A stretch of 39,279 nucleotides of DNA, taken from IMG/VR virus record IMGVR_UViG_3300046787_000253, positions 1-39,279 of that record; one strand, 5' to 3'. The notes below the pieces were generated by a model. The model had not been told where the DNA came from and did not search any database. It was given only the letters and a program-made list of their open reading frames with translations. This document shows, piece after piece, positions 1,684-28,140 of this stretch; within the stretch, counting starts at the first letter, position 1; every line of letters begins with the position of its first letter. The stretch comes from a virus. The position numbers and the translations under genes were made by a program.

Positions 1684-1990
1684 TTATATCGGTGGGGTCG
1701 ATGCAAATTCTTTAGAGAGATTGCCTCGGTGGGGTAGAAGTAAATTGCACTCAGCTATCGCTTGAGCATTCGTCTTCGACTGAATGGTTGCCTCGGTGGG
1801 GTCAAAGTAAAAATTATTTTAAGAGATTGCCTCGGTGGGGTCAGGCTGAATGGTTGCCTCGGTGGGGCCTGAGCATTCGTCTTCGACTGAATGGTTGCCT
1901 CGGTGGGGTCAAGGCTATCGGCTATCGCCTGATAGGTTGCCTCGGTGGGGTACACTCGTTTTCAACTGAGTGGTTGCCTCGGTGGGGTCG
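1684..1990 (+). repeat. Array of eight GGTTGCCTCGGTGGGGT repeats joined by hairpins
   Basis: The core CGGTGGGG starts at 1690, 1727, 1794, 1833, 1860, 1901, 1943 and 1980, with irregular spacing of 27 to 67 bases. Seven cores are preceded by TTGCCT, and the first by TATAT. Between cores are hairpins of one design: a 5-bp stem, a 3-bp stem, a 3-4 base loop, and a one-base T bulge on the 3' side (1767-1786, 1874-1893, 1915-1935, 1953-1972). A shorter relative lies at 1706-1722. Stems covary: CATTC/GAATG, CTATC/GATAG and CACTC/GAGTG outside, and GTC/GAC, GGC/GCC and GTT/AAC inside. The array is much more GC-rich than the genome. Frames through it are repeat artefacts. Confidence 0.85.
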
Positions 1991-2003
1991 GGGTGTTTTT
2001 GTT

Positions 2004-2131
2004 GCACCTGTATCAATTTGCACCTGTATCAATTTGCACCTGTATCAATTTGCACCTGTATCAATTTGCACCTGTATCAATTTGCACCTGTATCAATTTG
2101 CACCTGTATCAATTTGCACCTGTATCAATTA
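2004..2131 (+). repeat. Eight tandem 16-bp iterons (GCACCTGTATCAATTT)
   Basis: The unit GCACCTGTATCAATTT occurs eight times head to tail, starting at 2004, 2020, 2036, 2052, 2068, 2084, 2100 and 2116. The copies are perfect except for the last base of the final copy. The unit length is not a multiple of three, so all frames repeat and coding is unlikely. Perfect iterons of this size next to AT-rich DNA are typical of initiator-binding arrays at replication origins. No initiator is identified here. Confidence 0.9.
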
Positions 2132-2266
2132 CAAAGGTTAAATTTTACACTTATATATATAGTATAATTTTTCAATTTGTTTTTATTATTTTCGTTTTTC
2201 AAGCATTGGCAACCCCTGTAAATGCGTTGCAAATGTTAAATTTTTCTTAATTTTTTAACCTACCTA
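2132..2266. other. AT-rich stretch beside iterons; candidate unwinding element
   Basis: This non-coding stretch is dominated by A and T runs (for example at 2150-2205 and 2236-2258) and follows the iterons directly. Together with them it has the layout of an iteron-type origin. AATGCGTTGC at 2221-2230 is the reverse complement of GCAACGCATT at 5305-5314 and recalls the arms of the inverted-repeat element. Origin function is inference only. Confidence 0.4.
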
Positions 2267-2325
2267 TTGACTCATATATATATAATATACTACTATTGTA
2301 GTGTTGGAAAGCGGTAAAATACCGC
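2267..2325 (+). promoter_or_regulatory. Promoter and leader hairpin for the 2.4-4.8 kb genes
   Basis: TTG at 2267-2269 and TACTATTG at 2291-2298 (one mismatch from TAnnTTTG) are 21 bases apart. Just downstream, GCGGTA (2311-2316) and TACCGC (2320-2325) form a perfect 6-bp hairpin with an AAA loop. The hairpin would lie near the 5' end of the message and could stabilise it or bind a regulator. Confidence 0.5.
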
Positions 2326-2374
2326 CTAAAATTATCTAACTATCTGAAAATCAATTATTTAACACTTATTTATT

Positions 2375-2680
2375 ATGAAAAATTCAACACTTAAGAAAAT
2401 TAACGAAATTAACGACCTTATTAATGTTATTAATGAGTTAGGGGATATTCCTACAACTTACGCGGGCGGTACTTTCCCGCATTATGTATCAATTAAACCT
2501 ATAACTATAAAAAATCAATTTGTAACTATTGAAAGCGATATAAATGTATATTCTTATATTGATAATAAAGAAAGATACAACACAAACAAATCATCTATTT
2601 GCGGGGATGAATTTTGCGAAAAACATTTGAACTATACACTTAATATAATTTTGAAAGCATTCAAAAAAACTTTAAACTAA
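2375..2680 (+). CDS. Hypothetical protein (101 aa)
   Basis: A 101-residue protein. Residues 1-25 are helical and rich in Asn, Ile and Lys (KKINEINDLINVINELG). The middle is probably beta-rich (HYVSIKPITIKNQFVTIESDINVY). Two Cys residues lie in SSICGDEFCEKHL near the end. No family is recognised. It is the first gene after the candidate origin and promoter, and its stop shares an A with the start of the next gene (TAATG). Confidence 0.65.
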   Translation: MKNSTLKKINEINDLINVINELGDIPTTYAGGTFPHYVSIKPITIKNQFVTIESDINVYSYIDNKERYNTNKSSICGDEFCEKHLNYTLNIILKAFKKTLN

Positions 2681-2847
2681 TGACACTTAAACAAATCAAC
2701 AAAGAAATCGACAAAAAAGAGGTTCTAATTTTCAAACTATCAAAAGATTTGCACAGGCTTCAAACTACTGAGATTGAAATGGAATTAAACAAACAAAAAG
2801 AAATTTTGTTTTATCTTAATCAAATAGAATATTTATTAAACCTTTAA
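2680..2847 (+). CDS. Small coiled-coil protein (55 aa)
   Basis: The 55-residue product is almost wholly helical and charged (KEIDKKEVLIFKLSKDL, then EIEMELNKQKEILFYLNQIEYLL), with a heptad-like pattern of Leu and Ile. The start overlaps the preceding stop in TAATG, which suggests coupled translation. No function is known. The gene is supported by its packing between two other genes. Confidence 0.55.
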   Translation: MTLKQINKEIDKKEVLIFKLSKDLHRLQTTEIEMELNKQKEILFYLNQIEYLLNL

Positions 2848-2859
2848 ACCTTATTTATT

Positions 2860-3024
2860 ATGATCAATTTATTTATTATTTTATGCATTTTTATTTTATT
2901 TTTTGTACACGCATATAGCTTGGAATTTAGAAAGTTTACCAAGTACGATGGCTATTTATCAATTGGCTTTCTAATTACAATTATTTTAACTACAATAGAC
3001 TTATTCTTAACCTTAATTAATTAA
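2860..3024 (+). CDS. Small membrane protein, two predicted helices (54 aa)
   Basis: The 54-residue product has a hydrophobic segment at residues 3-18 (LFIILCIFILFFVHAY), a short charged loop (EFRKFTKYDG), and a second hydrophobic segment at residues 35-52. This is a hairpin-like inner-membrane topology. Such small early phage membrane proteins sometimes act in superinfection exclusion, but nothing here proves that. It sits 13 bases after its neighbour in the same transcription unit. Confidence 0.55.
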   Translation: MINLFIILCIFILFFVHAYSLEFRKFTKYDGYLSIGFLITIILTTIDLFLTLIN

Positions 3025-3028
3025 TACA

Positions 3029-3382
3029 ATGAAATCACACGAACAAATCACCGAATTTTTAAAGTCTTTGGATATTGATAACCTTAATATATTAGACTAC
3101 ATTAATATTGACGATATAGACCAAGACAACGCAAGCGAAAGTATTTTCGAAATGATAAACGACAATAACGGTTTCGAAGTTGAGATAATTTATTATAGCA
3201 ACGCAATTGAATACCTGAAAAGAAACGACCCTAGTTTGTCCGAAAGTATGGAAATTGCGACCCAATACGATTATAAATTATATATGTTAAATTCTGAAGT
3301 TTTGGCAAGTTTGCACGCTTCTAAAAAGGCTATGTCCGACTTTTGGGAATATCAAGACAAAATTAATAACTTTTTTAATTAA
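3029..3382 (+). CDS. Acidic phage protein (117 aa), IYYSNAIEYL type
   Basis: A 117-residue acidic protein. The N-terminal third is rich in Asp, Asn and Ile, and the conserved-looking core reads EVEIIYYSNAIEYL, then DPSLSESMEIA and LNSEVLASLHASK. That core resembles a small family seen in phages and mobile elements, whose function I do not know. Strong negative charge would fit a DNA-mimic or anti-restriction role, but this is speculation. Neighbouring genes are small accessory genes of the same direction. Confidence 0.65.
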   Translation: MKSHEQITEFLKSLDIDNLNILDYINIDDIDQDNASESIFEMINDNNGFEVEIIYYSNAIEYLKRNDPSLSESMEIATQYDYKLYMLNSEVLASLHASKKAMSDFWEYQDKINNFFN

Positions 3383-3390
3383 TTAATATT

Positions 3391-3687
3391 ATGAGAACAA
3401 TCACACAAAAAGCAGTAAACGCACTTTTGAACGCACAAAAGTTTAAGTTATCAAATACCGAAGTAAAAGTACTAGACAATGTAAGTATCTTACTTTATCA
3501 AGATAACCCTATTGCGTACCTATATAACGACCTAGAACGTACTCTAAGCATTCAAAATTGCGGTTGGTTCAGTAATACCACAAAGGAGCGTTTGAATGGC
3601 TTACCGAACGTTAAAATAAGCCAAAAAAACTTTGTTTGGTATTTGAACGGTAAAGAATGGAATGGTAACTTAATAGATATTAAATAA
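3391..3687 (+). CDS. Small phage protein with TTKERLNGL motif
   Basis: A 98-residue protein. It begins RTITQKAVNALLNAQKFKLSNTEV and later has CGWFSNTTKERLNGL and WYLNGKEWNG. Short proteins with this helix, beta-sheet and W..NTT..RLN pattern recur in phages, especially those of Bacteroidota, and form an uncharacterised family. The last base of its stop is the first base of the next start, so the two are coupled. Confidence 0.7.
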   Translation: MRTITQKAVNALLNAQKFKLSNTEVKVLDNVSILLYQDNPIAYLYNDLERTLSIQNCGWFSNTTKERLNGLPNVKISQKNFVWYLNGKEWNGNLIDIK

Positions 3688-4076
3688 TGGATAAACTAGA
3701 ATACATTATAAAGGAACTTAATAAGATTAAGCCTTTTAATAAGTACGTAAAAAAGGCAGTTGCTGAACGTATAGAGTACTATACAGAAACTGCGCATATG
3801 TTGGAAGCTGTAACAATGGAGCAAATAGAAAAATTTTGTTTTCTAGCGGAGGTACTTCGGGAAGCTGAAAAACTAGAAAAATTGAAATTTGCACCAAAAT
3901 TATTGGATAAAGTAGTTAAGTTAGAAGTACATCAATATGCGCCAGAAATGAATGTTTTGCACTTCAAAAAACACTTTATAACAGTACCACAAGCCAAAAC
4001 AATTGCGGAGGCAATAACGCAAATTATACAAAGTAATTCAATTTCATCATTAATCAAATTAAATTTATCATTATGA
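3687..4076 (+). CDS. Hypothetical protein (129 aa)
   Basis: A 129-residue protein that is mostly helical in appearance: an N-terminal KLEYIIKELNKIKPFNKYVKKAVAERI, a Glu- and Lys-rich centre, and a C-terminal ITVPQAKTIAEAITQII. No catalytic motif or family is recognised. It overlaps its upstream neighbour by 1 base and the next gene by 4 bases (ATGA junction), placing it in one operon with the 3.4-4.8 kb genes. Confidence 0.6.
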   Translation: MDKLEYIIKELNKIKPFNKYVKKAVAERIEYYTETAHMLEAVTMEQIEKFCFLAEVLREAEKLEKLKFAPKLLDKVVKLEVHQYAPEMNVLHFKKHFITVPQAKTIAEAITQIIQSNSISSLIKLNLSL

Positions 4077-4384
4077 AAATTTACAGCAGCTACAAAACAA
4101 TATCAGAACAATTTGACAGCCTTAATACTTTGCCACTATTTGAAATAGAAACAATTGATAAAAGGACAAATGAAATAGAACATATAATTTTTAATATATC
4201 AATTCAAAATAATAAATTTAGAGCGGAACATATAGCGCTAAACCAACAGCAAGAGGACAGCGAAAAAATTGCGTTCTGTAGTACTAGTATAGATAGTTTT
4301 TTGACACTGGATGAAAACTTGCAGGAGCTTTATTTTGAATGTATAGAAGCTATAAATAGAAGTACTTTTTATGAATTGCCTTAA
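4073..4384 (+). CDS. Hypothetical protein (103 aa)
   Basis: A 103-residue acidic protein with alternating hydrophobic segments that suggest beta strands (LPLFEIETIDKRTNEIEHIIFNISIQ), followed by a helical C-terminal half (LDENLQELYFECIEAI). No family is recognised. It overlaps the previous gene by 4 bases and the next by 14 bases. Confidence 0.55.
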   Translation: MKIYSSYKTISEQFDSLNTLPLFEIETIDKRTNEIEHIIFNISIQNNKFRAEHIALNQQQEDSEKIAFCSTSIDSFLTLDENLQELYFECIEAINRSTFYELP

Positions 4385-4667
4385 ATCATCCGTAATTATA
4401 AAGAAGCTGCAAAGGATAGAGAATATAAATAAGCATACTTATAATCTAGTTATTGATATAAGTAAAGGAACTACAGTAGTGCGACCAGTGTACAAAGTAC
4501 CAGAAAAAAAAACAATAATAAATGTATTGGACGAATTAATTATAGTACTAACAAAATTAAATCTTAACTTTGCGATTAGTAACGATGCACCCAGAAAGGG
4601 GAAAATAGGCACAATAATAACAATAAAAACATATATCAAATATGGAGACAGTACAGCAAAAGTATAA
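4371..4667 (+). CDS. Hypothetical basic protein (98 aa)
   Basis: A 98-residue Lys- and Ile-rich protein. It has a short helical N-terminus, a possible strand (TYNLVIDISKGTTVV), a helix (IINVLDELIIVLTKL) and a C-terminal strand. No family is recognised. It overlaps both neighbours (14 and 26 bases), which is typical of compact phage operons. A frame on the opposite strand here is judged a shadow. Confidence 0.5.
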   Translation: MNCLKSSVIIKKLQRIENINKHTYNLVIDISKGTTVVRPVYKVPEKKTIINVLDELIIVLTKLNLNFAISNDAPRKGKIGTIITIKTYIKYGDSTAKV

Positions 4668-4767
4668 CAGATTAAAAGAGGAACTAAATAAAGAAACAAA
4701 GGAGAATTTAATTCTTGCAAAGAAAATTTATTTAAAACGTTTTGAAGCTGAAAACGGGTTAACCTAA
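4642..4767 (+). CDS. Very small helical protein (41 aa), last of its operon
   Basis: A 41-residue charged helical product (KYNRLKEELNKETKENLILAKKIYL) that overlaps the previous gene by 26 bases. It ends 33 bases before a strong intrinsic terminator, which supports it as the last coding frame of the unit. The function is unknown. Confidence 0.5.
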   Translation: METVQQKYNRLKEELNKETKENLILAKKIYLKRFEAENGLT

Positions 4768-4800
4768 AGAAAAGGAAAACAAATGTTTGAAAATGTACAG

Positions 4801-4831
4801 AAATAGCACCTTATTAAGGTGCTATTTTTAT
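4801..4831 (+). terminator. Intrinsic terminator of the 2.4-4.8 kb operon
   Basis: A perfect 10-bp stem, AAATAGCACC (4801-4810) with GGTGCTATTT (4818-4827), closes a TTATTAA loop and is followed by TTTA. The stem's own T-run completes the U-tract. It cleanly separates the small accessory genes from the non-coding region ahead of the terminase genes. Confidence 0.9.
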
Positions 4832-5441
4832 GCTTATAATTTAGCGGGAACACCTGCAGGTACTGAATATAAGGGATGAAGCAAAGGATTGACAAAAATT
4901 AACAGCGGGAAATCCTATATATGTGCGCCCCTGTAATCAAAAACCCTTAAAAAGGTTCAATTCTGTAAGGCAATATCCTTAAAAAGGTTACATTTTGTAA
5001 GGTTACCCCCTTAAAATACGGGTAAAGTTGCACCAAACCACCGCAAATGGGTAAATTTATACCAATTTCGCCCGTGGATAGCACCCAATTAGCCTAATCG
5101 GATGATATTTTAGGGGGGTATACCCCATTGAGAATTTTGGGAGGAGGTGGTTATGACCCCCTGTAAAAATTTTTACCCCTAAAAAGCTATATAGTTATTC
5201 ACATCTTATTAGCAACTTTAGTTGTTAATGACTCGTGTTGTAAAATATTTGTAGGAGAAAATTCCTACTTTTTAAAATTTATCCAGTACGCATTGAAGTT
5301 TTTTGCAACGCATTTTTCTGTTTTTTAGTCTCAAATTTCCAGGTTTAGACTTAACTTTAGTCCAATTCTACTTTTCTATTTTTTAGTAAAAAAGATACGA
5401 AAAACCTATATTGCTTATAATCAACGTTTTAGCTTTTTAGG
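4832..5441. other. Non-coding region rich in palindromes and repeats
   Basis: No gene is supported in this stretch. It contains an imperfect 27-bp direct repeat (4944-4970 and 4976-5002, both containing CCTTAAAAAGGTT and ending GTAAGG). It also has a perfect 12-bp palindrome GGGGTATACCCC (5115-5126), a perfect 14-bp palindrome GTAAAAATTTTTAC (5163-5176), and a weak terminator-like hairpin GTAGGA/TCCTAC followed by T5 (5251-5273). CAGTACGCATT at 5284-5294 is a partial copy of the arm of the element at 5442. It could hold a packaging signal, a second origin or regulatory sites. I cannot tell which. Confidence 0.55.
4944..5002 (+). repeat. Imperfect 27-bp direct repeat, two copies
   Basis: Copy one (4944-4970) and copy two (4976-5002) share CCTTAAAAAGGTT at the start and a TGTAAGG end, and start 32 bases apart. 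Each contains a small CCTT/AAGG dyad. They could be binding sites for a phage protein. Confidence 0.65.
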
Positions 5442-5552
5442 CAGTACGCATTACGTTGACAATTTGCGTTTTTTAGGGACACCCCCCCTAAATATTTTAT
5501 TTTTAAGGGGGGTGTCCCCCAAAATTGACTTTTTTCAACGTAATGCGTACTG
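5442..5552. repeat. 111-bp inverted-repeat element, copy 1
   Basis: Perfect 18-bp terminal inverted repeats, CAGTACGCATTACGTTGA (5442-5459) and its reverse complement (5535-5552), enclose a second perfect 12-bp inverted repeat, GGGACACCCCCC (5476-5487) with GGGGGGTGTCCC (5507-5518). A related copy lies at 36130. Each copy sits just upstream of a TAnnTTTG promoter that drives a long gene block. Regulatory, insulating or replication roles are possible, and a small non-autonomous mobile element is the alternative. A frame across this hairpin is not a gene. Confidence 0.85.
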
Positions 5553-5594: not shown

Positions 5595-5648
5595 TAGCAA
5601 TAACAATAGTAATAAAAAATATACTATTGGGTTTAATCTATTTTAGTT

Positions 5649-6086
5649 ATGAGTTTTTATTCAGATAAAGAAAAGAAAGAGATGTTGGATTTAATAATTG
5701 ATTTAATAGAAGAAGGTGGTTCTATTAGACAAATATTAAGACGTTCTGATACTTGTGGTACTAAGACGTTCTACAAGTGGTTGGAAGCAGATGAGGAGTT
5801 ACAAGCTCGTTATGCTAAAGCTACTAAAGTAAGAGCTGATAATATCTTTGAAGAGATGTTGGAGATTGCTGACAAGCAGGAAGCGGATATGGGCTACAAC
5901 GAGAGAGGAGAAGAAGTGATAAACCATAATGTTATTAATCGTTCAAGATTACAGATAGACACAAGAAAGTGGATGTTAGGTAAATTGAACCCTACTAAGT
6001 ACGGAGATAAATTGGATGTAACTTCAGGAGGAGATAAACTTCAAGCTGTGCCGATTGTAGGAATGAAAATTCTAAATGAGGAATAA
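5649..6086 (+). CDS. terS: Terminase small subunit
   Basis: A 145-residue protein that probably recognises viral DNA and presents it to the large subunit for packaging. Residues 1-60 look like the helix-turn-helix DNA-binding part (IRQILRRSDTCGTKTFYKWLEADEELQARYAKA). Residues 61-110 are helical (ADNIFEEMLEIADKQ), and the INRSRLQIDTRKWMLGKLNPTKYGDK segment is highly typical of this terminase small subunit family. It is the first gene of the late block and overlaps the large subunit start by 11 bases. Length and position agree with the family. Confidence 0.88.
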   Translation: MSFYSDKEKKEMLDLIIDLIEEGGSIRQILRRSDTCGTKTFYKWLEADEELQARYAKATKVRADNIFEEMLEIADKQEADMGYNERGEEVINHNVINRSRLQIDTRKWMLGKLNPTKYGDKLDVTSGGDKLQAVPIVGMKILNEE

Positions 6087-8316
6087 GGAAATAAGTTTAA
6101 ATGTTCGTGGTAATGTAAAGCAGCTACAGGCTGTTAAGTATTGGATTGATGATACGACAATTGACATAGCCTACGGAGGGTCAAAAGGCTGCATTGTAGG
6201 CAGCACTTTAGTTAGGACTTTACAAGGCTTAATTCCAATTAAGAATGTAAAAGTTGGTGACTACGTATTGACTATTAACGAAGCCACTAAGCAGAATGAA
6301 TATAAATTAGTACTTGATACTAAAAAATTCAGTACCGAAGGCTACCACCATTACCATAAAATGATTACCTTTGTAATGAAGAACGGAGAATCGTTCTCGT
6401 TAACACCTAATCACGAAATTTATGATAATGGAAATTGGACACCAGCTGGAGAGTTTGCCGAACGAATCTTGGAAGGAAATAACGAATGGGTATCTAATAT
6501 CAACTTTTGGTCGGGTAGCTTCTCTCAAGCGTTTTGGCAAAAAAGAGAATACCATTTTAAAACCTTGTACGACAAAGAAGGGTTACTTAAGAATTTATTT
6601 AAGCATAGGAGGGGAAAAGAAGCAACTTCAGATACACCGATTAGTTGCATTAGCTTTCATAGAAAATCCTCAATCAAAGCCTATAGTAAATCACATCAAC
6701 TTCGACAGGAAGGACAATCGAGTAGAGAATCTAGAATGGGTAACAGACAAAGAGAATGTTCATCATTCAAAAAGTCGTTCTCATCAATTATTCGATACTC
6801 GTGGAGAAGATGTATGGAACTCAAAGCTAAATTCAGAAAAGGTTTTAGAGATACGGGCGAAGTTCAAGCCGAGAATTTACACAAGAGAGATGTTAGCACA
6901 GGAGTATGGAGTAAAAGCATCAACGATAAAAGACGTGATACTACGTCACAGTTGGAAGCACATTTGATAGAAAGTATCAGATATGAAGTTTTAGATGATT
7001 ATGTTTACGATTTATGTGTAGATAGTAATAATAATTATTGTTTGACAAGCGATAATATTATAGTTCACAATTCAGGCAAGAGTTTCTTAGGTTGTTCCCT
7101 TATTTGCGCTGATGCGTTAATGTACCCAGGTACTCATTACTTCATTGCAAGGAAGACATTGACTGATTTAAGAAAGTTTACCATTCCATCTGTTCACGAG
7201 ATACTTGATATTTGGGGAATAGGGAAGGAGTATTACAAGTACAATGGTCAGGATAACTACTTTCACTTTCACAATGGTTCTAAGATATTTTTATTAGACG
7301 CTAAGTACCAACCATCAGACCCGAATTATATGAGGTTTGGTTCGATGCAGATGACAAGGGGTTGGATTGAGGAGGCAGGGGAGTTTGAGTTAGAGTGTAA
7401 GAATAACTTACAGGCATCAATTGGAAGATGGAAGAACAAAGAATATAATTTACCCCCAAAACTGTTACAGACTTGTAACCCTTCTAAGAATTATTTATAC
7501 AAGGATTATTACAAGTTAGATATAGAAAAGAACTTACCGATTTACAGGAAGTTTATTCAAGCATTACCATCAGATAACAAGACATTACCCAAAGAATATA
7601 TACCCAATTTGATAAACATCTTATCTCCAAATGAGATACAGAGGTTGGTGTATGGTAACTGGGAGTTTGACGATAACCCATATGCGCTGTTTGATTATCA
7701 GGATATACTTGGATTATACACAAATGAGTTTATCAAGCCTACGGAAGATAGGTACATCACTGCGGATATTGCATACACTGGTGCTGATAAGTTTGTGATT
7801 ATGGTATGGGCTGGATTTGTGGTGGTTAAGATTATTGCAATTGATAAAATTGACGACACGATGGTCAGTAAGAAGATAAATGAACTCAGGGTTCACTACA
7901 GAGTTCCACTGAAGAATGTGGTGTATGATGCAGATGGATTACAGACGTTTACTAGGAACTCATCACAGAGTGGGAACTTAGTCGGAGCTGTAGGGTTTCA
8001 CAATAACGCAGTGCCGATTAAGGTGCAGGGGAAGAAAGAGAACTTCAAGAATCTAAAAGCTCAGGTGTACGAATTTTTTGCACAACAAGTTAAGGATTCA
8101 AAGGTGTTTATTCAGGATAATGCGTTTAGGAAGCAAGTGATTGAGGAGTTGGAGCAGATAAACAAGAATCCAATATTGGATGATGGTAAATATGCTTTAG
8201 AGCCTAAGAGTAAAGTAAGAGAGAGGTTGGGTAGGTCTCCCGATTTTGCGGATGCACTGGCGATGCGATTCTACTTTGAGTTGAAGGGTAAACCTAAGGT
8301 AATGATTAGGTGGTGA
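6076..8316 (+). CDS. terL: Terminase large subunit precursor with intein in Walker A
   Basis: This is the packaging ATPase and nuclease. The 746-residue precursor holds a 294-residue intein (residues 39-332) inside the P-loop. Removing it leaves about 452 residues with an intact GGSKG/SGKS Walker A, which is normal for the family. The C-terminal extein has a Walker B-like RGWIEEAGE, an LQTCNPSK coupling segment, and an RNase H-like nuclease with acidic residues in YITADIA (about residue 562), VVYDADG (about 617) and PDFADAL (about 724). The host protein should be inactive until splicing. The inner part of the intein doubles as an endonuclease gene in another frame. It overlaps terS by 11 bases and ends before a terminator at 8333. 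Confidence 0.95.
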   Translation: MRNKEISLNVRGNVKQLQAVKYWIDDTTIDIAYGGSKGCIVGSTLVRTLQGLIPIKNVKVGDYVLTINEATKQNEYKLVLDTKKFSTEGYHHYHKMITFVMKNGESFSLTPNHEIYDNGNWTPAGEFAERILEGNNEWVSNINFWSGSFSQAFWQKREYHFKTLYDKEGLLKNLFKHRRGKEATSDTPISCISFHRKSSIKAYSKSHQLRQEGQSSRESRMGNRQRECSSFKKSFSSIIRYSWRRCMELKAKFRKGFRDTGEVQAENLHKRDVSTGVWSKSINDKRRDTTSQLEAHLIESIRYEVLDDYVYDLCVDSNNNYCLTSDNIIVHNSGKSFLGCSLICADALMYPGTHYFIARKTLTDLRKFTIPSVHEILDIWGIGKEYYKYNGQDNYFHFHNGSKIFLLDAKYQPSDPNYMRFGSMQMTRGWIEEAGEFELECKNNLQASIGRWKNKEYNLPPKLLQTCNPSKNYLYKDYYKLDIEKNLPIYRKFIQALPSDNKTLPKEYIPNLINILSPNEIQRLVYGNWEFDDNPYALFDYQDILGLYTNEFIKPTEDRYITADIAYTGADKFVIMVWAGFVVVKIIAIDKIDDTMVSKKINELRVHYRVPLKNVVYDADGLQTFTRNSSQSGNLVGAVGFHNNAVPIKVQGKKENFKNLKAQVYEFFAQQVKDSKVFIQDNAFRKQVIEELEQINKNPILDDGKYALEPKSKVRERLGRSPDFADALAMRFYFELKGKPKVMIRW
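6190..7071 (+). other. Intein in TerL (in-frame, 294 aa)
   Basis: The splice junctions are visible: Cys1 follows GGSKG, and the intein ends with His-Asn before Ser+1 of SGKS. N-terminal block A is CIVGSTLVRTLQGLIPIKNV followed by VGDYVLTIN. Block B is TPNHEIY (precursor residues 110-116). C-terminal blocks are YVYDLCVDSNNNYCLTS and IIVHN. All residues for class 1 splicing are present. Between block B and the C-terminal blocks the in-frame translation is a low-quality Ser-, Lys- and Arg-rich stretch. This is not an endonuclease, because the endonuclease is encoded there in the +1 shifted frame. Confidence 0.93.
6422..6967 (+). CDS. HNH homing endonuclease nested out of frame inside the intein
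   Basis: A complete 181-residue endonuclease of the NUMOD4-HNH type. NUMOD4-like residues 15-36 read ESWKEITNGYLISTFGRVAS. The HNH domain reads IHRLVALAF (His72), VNHINFDRKDNRVENLEWV (His91, Asn99, Asn103). A C-terminal helix-turn-helix ends in the family-typical SWKHI. It is in frame 2, while the surrounding intein and TerL are in frame 1, and both frames are open across the whole overlap. The start may be at 6422 or at the ATG at 6428. It probably cuts intein-less terL alleles and so mobilises the intein. How it is translated is unclear, since no obvious ribosome signal is present. Confidence 0.88.
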   Translation: MIMEIGHQLESLPNESWKEITNGYLISTFGRVASLKRFGKKENTILKPCTTKKGYLRIYLSIGGEKKQLQIHRLVALAFIENPQSKPIVNHINFDRKDNRVENLEWVTDKENVHHSKSRSHQLFDTRGEDVWNSKLNSEKVLEIRAKFKPRIYTREMLAQEYGVKASTIKDVILRHSWKHI

Positions 8317-8332
8317 TACCTATGTAAATTCG

Positions 8333-8370
8333 CATAACAGATAAAATATCTGTTATGTTAATATTTTTTA
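8333..8370 (+). terminator. Intrinsic terminator after terL
   Basis: An 11-bp perfect stem, CATAACAGATA (8333-8343) with TATCTGTTATG (8347-8357), closes an AAA loop and is followed by TTAATATTTTTTA. A new -7 box lies immediately after it. Confidence 0.8.
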
Positions 8371-8371
8371 G

Positions 8372-8379
8372 TAAATTTG
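8372..8379 (+). promoter_or_regulatory. Promoter -7 box upstream of the portal gene
   Basis: TAAATTTG is a perfect TAnnTTTG, in the wider context TTAGTAAATTTGTA shared with other promoters of this phage. It lies 19 bases upstream of the portal start. The short leader is A-rich. Confidence 0.65.
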
Positions 8380-8398
8380 TAGCTTTAAATATAAAAAA

Positions 8399-10027
8399 AT
8401 GATATTTCAAAACGACCAAGAAGCGATTGCTGCTATTAAAGCCAATCTAAAAATAAATCACGAGTTCGTGGAAATGCGTGAAAGTTCTAATGAACTAAAG
8501 GCTTTAGTAAATGGCGATGACTTCATTGAGGAGTTAATCGAGAAGATTGAAAATATCGAGAGTGATAAGAAAGCATTGGCTCGTAAGAAGTACAGCAGAA
8601 GTATCAAAGATTTATTTGAGAGGTTGTTTCAGCCTATTGATAATATTTATTACGCTACAGGTGGTGTTAAAGACTACGACATTCCTAATGATAGTATTAG
8701 AAGTCAGTTCATAAAGAAGATTGCTAGTATTAGAGATAATAAGCCATTGTCTGAGTGGATTCAAAAGAATGCGATTAAATTAATGAATACAGACCCGAAC
8801 GGTTTGATATTTTTGGAGTATAAGACAATTCCTACAATTGATATTTACCCAACGTATAAGTCGATTGAGAAGATTAGATACTACGAGGCTGATGGTCAGT
8901 TGGTAGAGTATGTGATATTTGAGCCTAAGAAAAAAGACAACAGAACATTTTGGAGAATTGTTGATGACGCTAAAGATAGAGTATTTGAGCAGATTGGAAT
9001 GGAGTTTGTGTTGATTGAAGAATTGACATTTGACCATCCATTTGGTCAGACACCTGCGCTTATTTGTTCTAATATTCAAGAGCCAGGAGAAGAGGAGAAG
9101 TTGTCGGCAATTGATAGCGTTATTGATGCGGCTAAGGAATATGCGAGAGACCAATCGTTCTTGACGTTATATAAAATTTATAAAGGGAATCCAATCTTTT
9201 GGAAGTATGTTCAGTATTGTGGCGAATGTTCAGGTACAGGTAAGAGTGGCGATGAGGCTTGTGGTACTTGTGATGGTCACGGTAAGATGGTATCTAAGAA
9301 TGATGTTACAGATGTTGTTGAGTTACCAGTTCCTGATAGTACAGACTCTCCTATTATCGCTCCAAATATTGCAGGATTTATATCTCCTGATTTAAATGTT
9401 TGGGAGCAGTACAACGTAGAGCTTGGGAAGTTAGAAGAGAATATATATAAAACGCATTGGGGTACGTTCTATGGTGTTAGTAAAAACACAGGAAGTATTA
9501 AGACTGCTACAGAGGTAATGTTTGATAAGCAGCCTATGGAGAATAAGCTCAATATGTACGCTGACTTTGTGGAGTATATTGAGTGGAAAATATCAGAGTG
9601 GATTTTAAACTTCTACGATACTACGAAAGATAAGAGCGAAAGCCGAATTACTATTAATTTAGGTCGTAGATATATCATTGAGAGTTATGACACATTGTTG
9701 GAGCGATATGAAAATGCAGTTAAGTTGCAGGACAATAGCGTGGTTTTGGATAAACTATTCGGAGAATACTTAGGAGCTAAGTATAGAAATAATCCTATTG
9801 ATTTGCATATCAACTTATTAAAAGCGAAATTAGAACCTTACTTGCATTTGAATTTAACAGATGTAATTAGTATCTTTGGTCAGGAAGAGGCGCAGAGAAA
9901 AGTATTATTTAACAAATGGTGGAAGACCGTTACTGATTACTACAAGTCAGAAGATGTATTAAGTGCTGAGTTTGATGCTTGGTTCGAAATAAATAAAAAA
10001 CCTATATCAGCACCTACTATTCAGTAG
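8399..10027 (+). CDS. Portal-like protein with a DnaJ-type zinc motif
   Basis: A 542-residue protein that directly follows the terminase genes and has portal-like size and composition. Portals form the dodecameric DNA channel at the capsid vertex. The first 110 residues are helical. The middle (residues 125-270) looks beta-rich. Residues 330-490 include long helices (YADFVEYIEWKISEWIL) as in portal stems. Two CxxCxGxG units, C274-C277 and C288-C291 (CGECSGTG and CGTCDGHG), form a DnaJ-like zinc-binding hairpin, an unusual insertion. Assignment rests on position and layout, not on a clear motif. A shadow frame on the other strand was ignored. Confidence 0.75.
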   Translation: MIFQNDQEAIAAIKANLKINHEFVEMRESSNELKALVNGDDFIEELIEKIENIESDKKALARKKYSRSIKDLFERLFQPIDNIYYATGGVKDYDIPNDSIRSQFIKKIASIRDNKPLSEWIQKNAIKLMNTDPNGLIFLEYKTIPTIDIYPTYKSIEKIRYYEADGQLVEYVIFEPKKKDNRTFWRIVDDAKDRVFEQIGMEFVLIEELTFDHPFGQTPALICSNIQEPGEEEKLSAIDSVIDAAKEYARDQSFLTLYKIYKGNPIFWKYVQYCGECSGTGKSGDEACGTCDGHGKMVSKNDVTDVVELPVPDSTDSPIIAPNIAGFISPDLNVWEQYNVELGKLEENIYKTHWGTFYGVSKNTGSIKTATEVMFDKQPMENKLNMYADFVEYIEWKISEWILNFYDTTKDKSESRITINLGRRYIIESYDTLLERYENAVKLQDNSVVLDKLFGEYLGAKYRNNPIDLHINLLKAKLEPYLHLNLTDVISIFGQEEAQRKVLFNKWWKTVTDYYKSEDVLSAEFDAWFEINKKPISAPTIQ

Positions 10028-11487: not shown

Positions 11488-11566
11488 TGTATTGTCGCAG
11501 ATACTTGTAAAATTTTAAATAAATTCCCACAATGATAGAACTGCGACTCTTGATTTGTGGGTTTTT
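11488..11566 (+). ncRNA. Candidate leader or small RNA ending in a terminator
   Basis: A 7-bp hairpin, GTATCTG/CAGATAC (11483-11489 with 11498-11504), is followed by a terminator-like stem, CCCACAA/TTGTGGG (11526-11532 with 11555-11561), with a T5 tail. The sequence GTCGCAG (11494-11500) in the first hairpin is the exact complement of CTGCGAC (11541-11547) in the loop of the second. This would allow a loop-loop contact that competes with part of the first stem. It may attenuate the endonuclease gene that starts at 11572, or be a free small RNA. Confidence 0.45.
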
Positions 11567-11571
11567 GCTTT

Positions 11572-12369
11572 ATGATAGGAATATATAAAATTACCAGCCC
11601 AAGCGGTAAGATTTACATAGGTCAAAGTATAGACATTATGAATCGTATTCATAAATACAAAACTTCAAGATGTATAACTCAGCCTATTATACTTAAATCT
11701 ATTTTAAAGTATGGTTGGGATAATCACTTGTTTGAAATAGTTTGTGAATGTAAGAAGGAGGAGCTTAATGAGCTTGAGAGATATTATCAAGATAAATTTG
11801 ACTGCATTGGTAAGAACGGAATGAATTGTATGCTTACAACCACTTCTACAAAAAGCGGAAAAGCACGTGCCGAAACAATTGCTAAACTTACAGGCAGAAA
11901 ACTTCCTGAATCTACTCGTGAAAAAATGAGAAATAGAAAACTTAGCGAAGAAACTAGAGAAAAAATTAGTCAGTCATTAACAGGAAGAAAAGTATCTGAA
12001 GAAACTAAAAGAAAAATTAGCGAAGCTAACAAAGGAAAAAAAAGGACTCAGGAGTATGTTGAAAAAATGAAGCAAAGAATTATTCCTGAACACGTAAAAG
12101 ATATGCTTCGTACAAATATGAAAGGTAAAAAACATTCTGAAGAAACTTTAGAAAAGTTAAGAATAGCTCAAAAAGGTAAAAAACCTTCTGATGACTGTAT
12201 AAATAAATCTAAATTAGCAAACTCTAAAAAAGTTCTAGATACTGAAACTGGAATTATTTATAATTCTGCTAGTGAATTATCTAGAATTTTAAATATAAGT
12301 GTAAGTACTTTAACAGCAAAACTAAGTGGTCAGAATAAAAATACAACTCAATACGTTTATGTATCTTAA
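11572..12369 (+). CDS. GIY-YIG homing endonuclease with NUMOD3 repeats
   Basis: Taken from the ATG at 11572, since a GTG five codons earlier falls in the terminator stem. The 265-residue product starts MIGIYKITSPSGKIYIGQS, the GIY-YIG catalytic core. The Arg of the following helix is in MNRIHKYK, and the catalytic Glu is probably the one in ELNELERYY. Residues 100-210 hold NUMOD3 repeats such as TGRKLPESTREKMRNRKLS. The C-terminal 45 residues resemble NUMOD1 (VLDTETGIIYNSASELSRIL). It lies between the scaffold and capsid genes and is likely a free-standing selfish nuclease. Confidence 0.92.
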   Translation: MIGIYKITSPSGKIYIGQSIDIMNRIHKYKTSRCITQPIILKSILKYGWDNHLFEIVCECKKEELNELERYYQDKFDCIGKNGMNCMLTTTSTKSGKARAETIAKLTGRKLPESTREKMRNRKLSEETREKISQSLTGRKVSEETKRKISEANKGKKRTQEYVEKMKQRIIPEHVKDMLRTNMKGKKHSEETLEKLRIAQKGKKPSDDCINKSKLANSKKVLDTETGIIYNSASELSRILNISVSTLTAKLSGQNKNTTQYVYVS

Positions 12370-27328: not shown

Positions 27329-27336
27329 TATATTTG
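27329..27336 (+). promoter_or_regulatory. Promoter -7 box of the second GIY-YIG gene
   Basis: TATATTTG (context TTTAGTATATTTGTA) starts right after the fibre stop codon. The ATG at 27340 is 4 bases downstream, so the transcript would start at or next to the start codon. Confidence 0.6.
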
Positions 27337-27339
27337 TAT

Positions 27340-28140
27340 ATGGCGTACGTATATAGACATATTAGATTAGACACAAATAAGGTTTTTTACGTTGGAATTG
27401 GGAATGATTTAAAATATAAAAGAAGTTTTTCTAAATACAATCGTAATAAACATTGGCATAATATTGTAAATAAAACGCAAATTGAAATAGAAATTTTATT
27501 TGACGATATAAATTATGATGAGGCGAAAAATAAAGAAATAGAGTTTATATCGCTATACGGAAGACGTGATTTAGGAATAGGAACACTTGTTAATATGACC
27601 AATGGTGGAGAAGGATGTTTAGGTATGATTGTAACAGAAGATGTTAGAAACAAAATTAGTAAAAATAATAAAGGGAAAAAAATATCACAAGAAACACGTG
27701 ATAAAATATCTTTATCTAGAAAAGGATTTAAGCATTCAGATGAGGTAAAAAAGAAAATAGGAGATTTTAAGAGAGGTAAGAAATTACCTCCTAGAAAACC
27801 CATCTCTGAAGATACAAGAAGAAAAATGTCGGAAAGTAAAAAAGGTAAAAGTCCATCTTATAATTACATTAGAACTGAAGAGCACAGAAAAAGATTAAGA
27901 GAAGGAGCTTTAGGAAAAAAAATGTCAGATGCTTGTAAATTAAAAATGTCTGAAAATAGAAGTATTCCTGTATTGCAATATTGTAAAGATGGAAAGTTAA
28001 TAAAAGAATGGAAATCAGCTACATTAGCTGCGTTTGAATTATTTAACGCTAGAAATAGTTCAAGTATTGTTAGATGTTTAAAAGGTAAAAAAATGTTAGC
28101 TTACGGCTTTAAATGGGAATATTTAAATAAAAACAAATAA
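27340..28140 (+). CDS. GIY-YIG-like endonuclease with NUMOD3 and NUMOD1
   Basis: Taken from ATG 27340, since the TTG two codons upstream is part of the promoter box. The 266-residue protein begins AYVYRHIRLDTNKVFYVGIGND, a divergent GIY-YIG core (VYR and YVG). It continues with KEIEFISLYGR, which probably has the catalytic Glu. Residues 95-210 hold NUMOD3 repeats (NKGKKISQETRDKISLSRKG). Residues 212-262 are NUMOD1-like (VLQYCKDGKLIKEWKSATLA). It is probably a free-standing homing endonuclease placed between the fibre and the following tail gene. Whether the variant core is active is uncertain. Confidence 0.85.
   Translation: MAYVYRHIRLDTNKVFYVGIGNDLKYKRSFSKYNRNKHWHNIVNKTQIEIEILFDDINYDEAKNKEIEFISLYGRRDLGIGTLVNMTNGGEGCLGMIVTEDVRNKISKNNKGKKISQETRDKISLSRKGFKHSDEVKKKIGDFKRGKKLPPRKPISEDTRRKMSESKKGKSPSYNYIRTEEHRKRLREGALGKKMSDACKLKMSENRSIPVLQYCKDGKLIKEWKSATLAAFELFNARNSSSIVRCLKGKKMLAYGFKWEYLNKNK

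Follow-up and report, generated by a model that had tools for sequence, protein, structure and literature searches.

How can a large terminase gene carry, in one uninterrupted frame, an intein whose middle part is at the same time the coding sequence of a complete homing endonuclease in another frame? The locus that raises this question lies in IMG/VR virus record IMGVR_UViG_3300046787_000253, a single metagenomic contig of 39,279 bases, all of which is referred to below as the window; the loci that we compared with it, collected through HNH searches of viral contigs and genomes and through TerL searches, are labelled with L-numbers. The first-pass annotation had placed the terminase (TerL) with its intein in one frame and a NUMOD4-HNH endonuclease in a second, and we recovered the same coordinates and frames, with the NUMOD4 and HNH_3 domains identified by Pfam. 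The nested-gene observation is real, is conserved and is part of a larger pattern. At a probability of roughly 85%, we read the locus as a mobile intein in the terminase P-loop whose homing endonuclease is a separate gene laid over the linker in the +1 frame, a reading under which the intein would splice, the nuclease would be initiated internally and intein-less sites would be cleaved. The features are as follows:

6076–8316, plus strand: TerL precursor (N-extein, intein and C-extein), 746 aa in one open frame; PF03237 Terminase_6N and PF14890 Intein_splicing.
6076–6189, plus strand: TerL N-extein, 38 aa, ending in ...YGGSKG, the first half of Walker A; the N-terminus is identical in the intein-less loci L350 and L351.
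6190–7071, plus strand: intein, 294 aa, Cys1...His293-Asn294 followed by Ser+1; boundaries exact from the empty alleles L350, L351, L359 and L381.
6190–6474, plus strand: N-terminal splicing part (intein residues 1–95), Hint fold, AlphaFold pLDDT mostly 80–93.
6401–6403, plus strand: TAA stop of the HNH frame, lying 6 codons ahead of ATG 6422 and limiting where a frameshift fusion could start.
6422–6967, plus strand: NUMOD4-HNH endonuclease gene nested in the intein and shifted to its +1 frame, 181 aa, alternative ATG at 6428; from Pfam, the I-HmuI profile and a structural model.
6464–6601, plus strand: NUMOD4 domain (HNH residues 15–60), PF07463, E-value 8.9e-7.
6475–6936, plus strand: intein linker (residues 96–249), the nuclease gene read off-frame; pLDDT <50, predicted disordered, near-neutral amino acid change, no stops.
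6632–6760, plus strand: HNH_3 nuclease core (HNH residues 71–113), PF13392, E-value 7.3e-9.
6937–7071, plus strand: C-terminal splicing part (residues 250–294), AlphaFold pLDDT 76–91.
7072–8316, plus strand: TerL C-extein, starting with SGKSFLG, the remainder of Walker A.

The intein sits inside the Walker A loop of TerL, directly after YGGSKG, and ends in VHN, after which the terminase resumes with SGKSFLG; computed from the ORF without the intein, TerL is 452 aa long. The element has the properties of a class 1 intein: a Hint fold, blocks A, B, F and G, Cys1, T72xxH75, D274 and H293-N294, with a C-terminal Asn followed by Ser+1 (...VHN|SGKS) and an exact in-frame insertion into a conserved motif. 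C1, T72, H75 and N294 are invariant among 18 intein relatives, and D274 and H293 nearly so. Pfam assigns Intein_splicing (E-value 2.3e-7, under the curated cut-off) and Terminase_6N (2.5e-6) to the window ORF; the Intein_splicing and Hint matches of the window lie at or below the curated cut-offs, which the relatives L023 and L033 pass. In the AlphaFold model built from an 18-row intein alignment, residues 1–95 and 250–294 are ordered and residues 96–249 are disordered, and the ordered part of this predicted structure superimposes on the Mtu RecA mini-intein with a Z-score of 16.7 (2.1 Å over 128 residues). A profile search of the PDB with the intein returned splicing domains only. Judged from the modelled fold, the TerL intein is predicted to splice and so to restore the Walker A loop. 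The endonuclease and the splicing domain do not share one polypeptide as they do in a maxi-intein, the HNH being in the +1 frame, and the single 746-aa ORF of the window is not the arrangement of a fractured gene with a split intein. Besides the TerL and HNH frames, the only ORFs of at least 40 aa that touch the intein are three antisense ones (41–51 aa). A group I intron was considered and rejected: there is no sign of one because positions 5600–8500 gave no Rfam match up to an E-value of 1, and the insertion is in frame and open.

The HNH ORF lies entirely within the intein (an overlap of 546 bp), with its first codon position on the second position of the intein codons. It starts in the stretch after block B, ends just before block F and overlaps about 18 ordered residues of the N-terminal part of the intein and 10 of its C-terminal part. 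With a NUMOD4 domain followed by an HNH core and an I-HmuI fold, as seen by Pfam, profile and model alike, the protein belongs to the I-HmuI type: its profile matches I-HmuI (1u3e) with an E-value of 6.4e-23 over residues 16–175, and its AlphaFold model (pLDDT 82) superimposes on 1u3e with a Z-score of 14.7 (1.6 Å over 103 residues). The tail before NUMOD4 is poorly ordered (pLDDT <50 for residues 1–8), and the C-terminal part is predicted to be helical, with a weak resemblance to HTH domains (Z-scores near 5). The nuclease would be made separately, by internal initiation at 6422 or 6428. No Shine-Dalgarno site is evident upstream of 6422. The octamer TACCTTTG at 6366–6373, 48 bases ahead of the HNH start, matches TAnnTTTG, the Bacteroidetes -7 promoter element; the same bases encode ITFV of the intein, so the match may be due to chance. 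Elsewhere in the window, a strong inverted repeat (GGGACACCCCCCCTAAATA...TTTAAGGGGGGTGTCCC, 5476–5524) lies upstream of the small terminase gene, and two ORFs (11557–12369 and 27334–28140) look by eye like free-standing GIY-YIG homing endonucleases; the phage seems to be rich in mobile nucleases.

We asked how often both frames would be open by chance by holding each HNH protein and the set of codons it uses constant and shuffling synonymous codons (2000 shuffles per locus, 19 loci). For the window, 11.7 +/- 2.4 stops are expected in the intein frame and none is observed, an outcome that none of the 2000 shuffles reproduced; across all loci 5.7–14.7 stops are expected, none is seen in 19 of 19, and zero was never reached in any set of 2000. 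In the reverse test, with the intein protein fixed, 2.8 stops are expected in the HNH frame of the window against none observed (p=0.0055), and over all loci 2.3–7.2 are expected, again with none observed (p between 0 and 0.056). These shuffles reject chance openness of the intein frame. Among HNH relatives, the frame corresponding to that of the intein averages about 10 stops per 100 codons, and the relatives fall into two groups, with either zero stops or mostly at least 5, the lowest non-zero count being 2. Except for L113 and L262, the zero-stop group consists of loci with an in-frame intein in the P-loop region of TerL; L113 is an artefact of 13 codons left by a broken match, and L262 is a GC-rich HNH gene in which this frame is open by chance and no intein is seen.

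The substitutions themselves were examined in three independent close pairs, pooled (window/L001, L002/L003 and L360/L379). Third positions of HNH codons account for 82 of the 115 nucleotide changes, and the per-site rates are 0.023 where both proteins would change, 0.036 where only the HNH would, 0.27 where only the intein would and 0.25 where neither would. The rate is low where the HNH changes and high where only the intein does, and hence the HNH is strongly conserved and the linker tolerant: purifying selection acts strongly on the HNH protein, and the overlap, as read in the intein frame, changes almost neutrally yet stays stop-free. Between the close pairs, 7.3 substitutions that are synonymous in the HNH but create intein stops are expected, and the sequences contain no stop; two single changes of this kind were counted, both in stop-free sequences and therefore offset by a neighbouring change. 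The annotation had attributed the open intein frame to selection, had described the linker as the off-frame reading of the nuclease gene, and had put chance openness at 1 in 10,000. The first of these is borne out by the missing stop-making substitutions, the second by a linker that is both disordered in the model and nearly neutral in sequence, and the third proved conservative. It had also proposed that related phages be compared for the absence of stops, and none was found in either frame in any of the 19 nested loci.

The same nested layout, in the same relative frame, recurs in at least 21 other viral contigs, whose HNH proteins are 36–94% identical to that of the window (L001–L007, L015/16, L019/20, L021, L023, L033, L045, L055, L196, L202, L353, L360 and L379). 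Their TerLs are of several types, and the HNH core residues are invariant over this deep divergence. The sense-nested layout was absent from 80 bacterial genome-contig loci and from isolates in phage searches with the TerLs of the window, L016, L023 and L033. In three loci (L016 at 1812–5078, L023 at 2667–5540, and L335) the terminase ORF contains another Hint region resembling an intein, downstream of the first.

Four other readings of the locus have to be weighed against separate initiation from a functional gene within a splicing intein. The HNH frame begins inside the N-terminal splicing part, with shared nucleotides, as it would if a programmed +1 frameshift produced an IntN-HNH fusion; the stop at 6401–6403, however, leaves just a 6-codon stretch before the ATG, in which we see by eye no slippery motif. 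In addition, in all 18 of the 18 nested loci an ATG follows the last in-frame stop and precedes the NUMOD4 domain by 12–19 codons, which favours internal initiation over frameshifting, and we regard the fusion as very unlikely. Many homing endonucleases decay after fixation, as is generally known, and the HNH could be such a relic, no longer made, with both frames open by descent from a recent frameshift. We consider this a little less likely again: changes in the HNH show a strong bias towards synonymous sites, the core residues have not changed over deep divergence, none of the 19 nested HNHs contains a stop, and empty alleles are still around.

Slimmer still is the chance that the intein is not spliced and that the insert stays in TerL as a tolerated loop, in the way proposed for the ShiLan element (PMC11855218), given the complete predicted Hint fold, the conservation of the splicing residues and the fact that the insert interrupts an essential ATPase midway through its Walker A loop. 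Finally, since the window rests on a single metagenomic contig, a +1/-1 pair of sequencing or assembly errors could in principle mask an ordinary intein with an in-frame HNH; the same two frames are found in 21 other contigs and therefore do not stem from such a pair, and a motif scan of 428 loci found no HNH in frame with an intein, which brings this explanation close to negligible. Both the error pair and in-frame homologues had been named at the outset as what could overturn the nested reading, and the comparison has disposed of the first and, across the 428 loci, shown no case of the second. We thus retain the nested, separately initiated nuclease gene.

A search with the TerL C-extein found intein-less TerLs with an empty site of GGSKG|SGKSF and nothing in between: the TerL C-exteins of L350 and L351 are 99.3% and 98.7% identical to that of the window, and L359, L381 and some 40 others also have no intein. 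The DNA on either side of the insertion site aligns to L350 with 92–98% identity; the 14 bases immediately ahead of the site are not part of this alignment and differ at several synonymous positions, a divergence that co-conversion during homing would leave. Three TerLs that are 97.7% identical comprise L359 without an intein, L002 with one intein lineage and L360 with another, the HNHs of the latter two being only 58% identical and their splicing domains 51%. The best-supported clades of splicing domains and of HNHs agree, whereas the TerL tree places the same loci elsewhere, and therefore the intein and its nested gene move together between phages. It is probably the nested nuclease that spreads the intein, and the empty alleles and the joint movement are indirect signs that it may cut or nick the empty terL site.

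Close relatives of the nuclease also occur as free-standing genes directly upstream of intein-less TerLs (L011–L014, L017, L018 and L024–L026); at one of these, L013 (350–1137), what is left of a TerL N-terminus breaks off at Walker A (LLYGGAAG) immediately ahead of the HNH, which is followed by a complete TerL. In L008 (3649–5901), a TerL-N/IntN ORF, an HNH and an IntC/TerL-C ORF with its own ATG follow one another with short overlaps. This is the organisation of a fractured gene with a split intein, and the layout of L008 makes it a possible intermediate. A tree of 51 HNHs requires three changes between the nested and the free state, and since close free-standing relatives exist, nesting may have been gained or lost two to three times.

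Nesting is not confined to one frame. The search with the TerL of L033 matched isolate Pectobacterium phages over the intein, and in Pectobacterium phage Ymer (OP748252.2, L170) a 232-aa HNH_3 ORF runs antisense inside the intein (3342–2644, minus strand). Such antisense HNH_3 genes are found in L170, L171, L173–L189, L270–L349 and L429 (PHS3, 1920–2639), within Walker-A inteins, mostly of terminases, of Pectobacterium phages, Pseudoalteromonas phage PHS3 and about 90 metagenomic contigs. All ten viral-contig relatives examined (L173–L179 and L187–L189) lie inside an intein with the host frame open, and in a wider search the intein frame was open in 79 of 80 antisense loci, most of which show the C-terminal intein motif. 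Intein_splicing was detected at E <0.001 in 9 of 10 tested host ORFs, in some over the C-terminal part only. When 27 antisense HNHs were shuffled synonymously, 2–7 intein-frame stops were expected and none was seen (p <0.001 to 0.07 each). We think it likely that inteins with a nuclease gene overprinted on the linker make up a widespread group of phage mobile elements that arose independently at least twice (sense +1 NUMOD4-HNH and antisense HNH_3), since the linker of an intein can be any open reading. Annotation misses such nested nucleases: the depositors of PHS3 (KX912252.1) annotated the antisense HNH and a truncated TerL, and the TerLs of the Pectobacterium phages (L170/L171) are annotated as hypothetical proteins.

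In the mechanism that we propose, a ribosome reading the long frame would yield the TerL precursor, from which the Hint domain, with blocks A, B, F and G intact, would splice itself out and restore the Walker A loop. Ribosomes starting separately at the internal ATG (6422 or 6428) would make the 181-aa NUMOD4-HNH nuclease, which would nick or cut intein-less terL near GGSKG|SGKS, and repair would copy the intein and the nuclease gene into the cleaved allele. Selection would bear on the sequence of the nuclease and on the two intein ends, while the linker would need only to stay open. The splicing and cutting halves of a homing intein would thus be split into two proteins with the host gene unbroken; point mutations in the HNH could not poison splicing unless they created a stop, and the nuclease could have its own expression level. 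The arrangement is a clean natural case of overlapping genes in which selection preserves the sequence of one frame but only the openness of the other, and it accounts for a class of inteins with no apparent nuclease. Beyond the first-pass annotation, the comparison adds exact empty sites, conservation over deep divergence, a relative whose intein is split, free-standing relatives next to TerL and a counterpart in antisense, and the two-in-one layout looks like a general, largely overlooked build for mobile inteins.

How does this layout compare with known systems? Canonical inteins with an in-frame endonuclease (LAGLIDADG, some HNH) likewise have a Hint domain with the nuclease between blocks B and F, are mobile and have empty alleles; in the window the nuclease is instead a separate overlapping gene, off the intein polypeptide, and the linker is predicted to be disordered. 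Fractured genes, said to go back to Dassa et al. in 2009, are reportedly inteins split in two, with a free-standing endonuclease in between. There, too, the nuclease is separate from the intein polypeptide and occupies the same place in the intein, as in L008, whereas the intein of the window is contiguous, is predicted to splice in cis and is overlapped by its nuclease over 546 bp. In Campylobacter phage IBB_35 (L172, 3025–4393), a ribonucleotide reductase intein is broken by stops, with a 220-aa ORF between the halves. I-HmuI is a NUMOD4-type HNH homing endonuclease whose gene lies in a phage group I intron; over HNH residues 15–123 the fold and domain order are the same, but the I-HmuI gene is not known to overlap a protein-coding frame and the C-terminal DNA-binding part differs. 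As for mycobacteriophage TerL inteins, the sections of the published account that we drew on (PMC5050341) place them in the terminase ATPase domain near functional motifs, as in the window, and report demonstrated endonuclease activity; those sections describe HEN domains that belong to the intein, and mention no nuclease in another frame. Our literature search turned up no report of a nuclease gene that overlaps a complete intein, whether in sense or antisense, and an earlier description is possible; for overlapping frames, PMC11855218 cites Gosselin et al. 2025 (bioRxiv, 'Actinobacteriophage Inteins ... Non-Canonical Architecture') and Gorbalenya 1998 ('Non-canonical inteins').

Of the known systems, the ShiLan element comes closest. 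The paper describing it documents HNH genes lying out of frame in phage methylases, with neither a splicing domain nor any sign of splicing, and interprets the insertion as remaining in the methylase (PMC11855218); Mycobacterium phage Constella (L431) has a ShiLan-like methyltransferase ORF (1261–2718) with an overlapping annotated HNH in another frame (1773–2408). ShiLan and the window have in common an HNH gene in another frame of the insertion, a host gene kept open and an apparent spread by homing. They differ in that ShiLan has no detectable splicing domain, whereas the window combines its out-of-frame HNH, of the NUMOD4-HNH type, with a full Hint fold in the Walker A motif of TerL.
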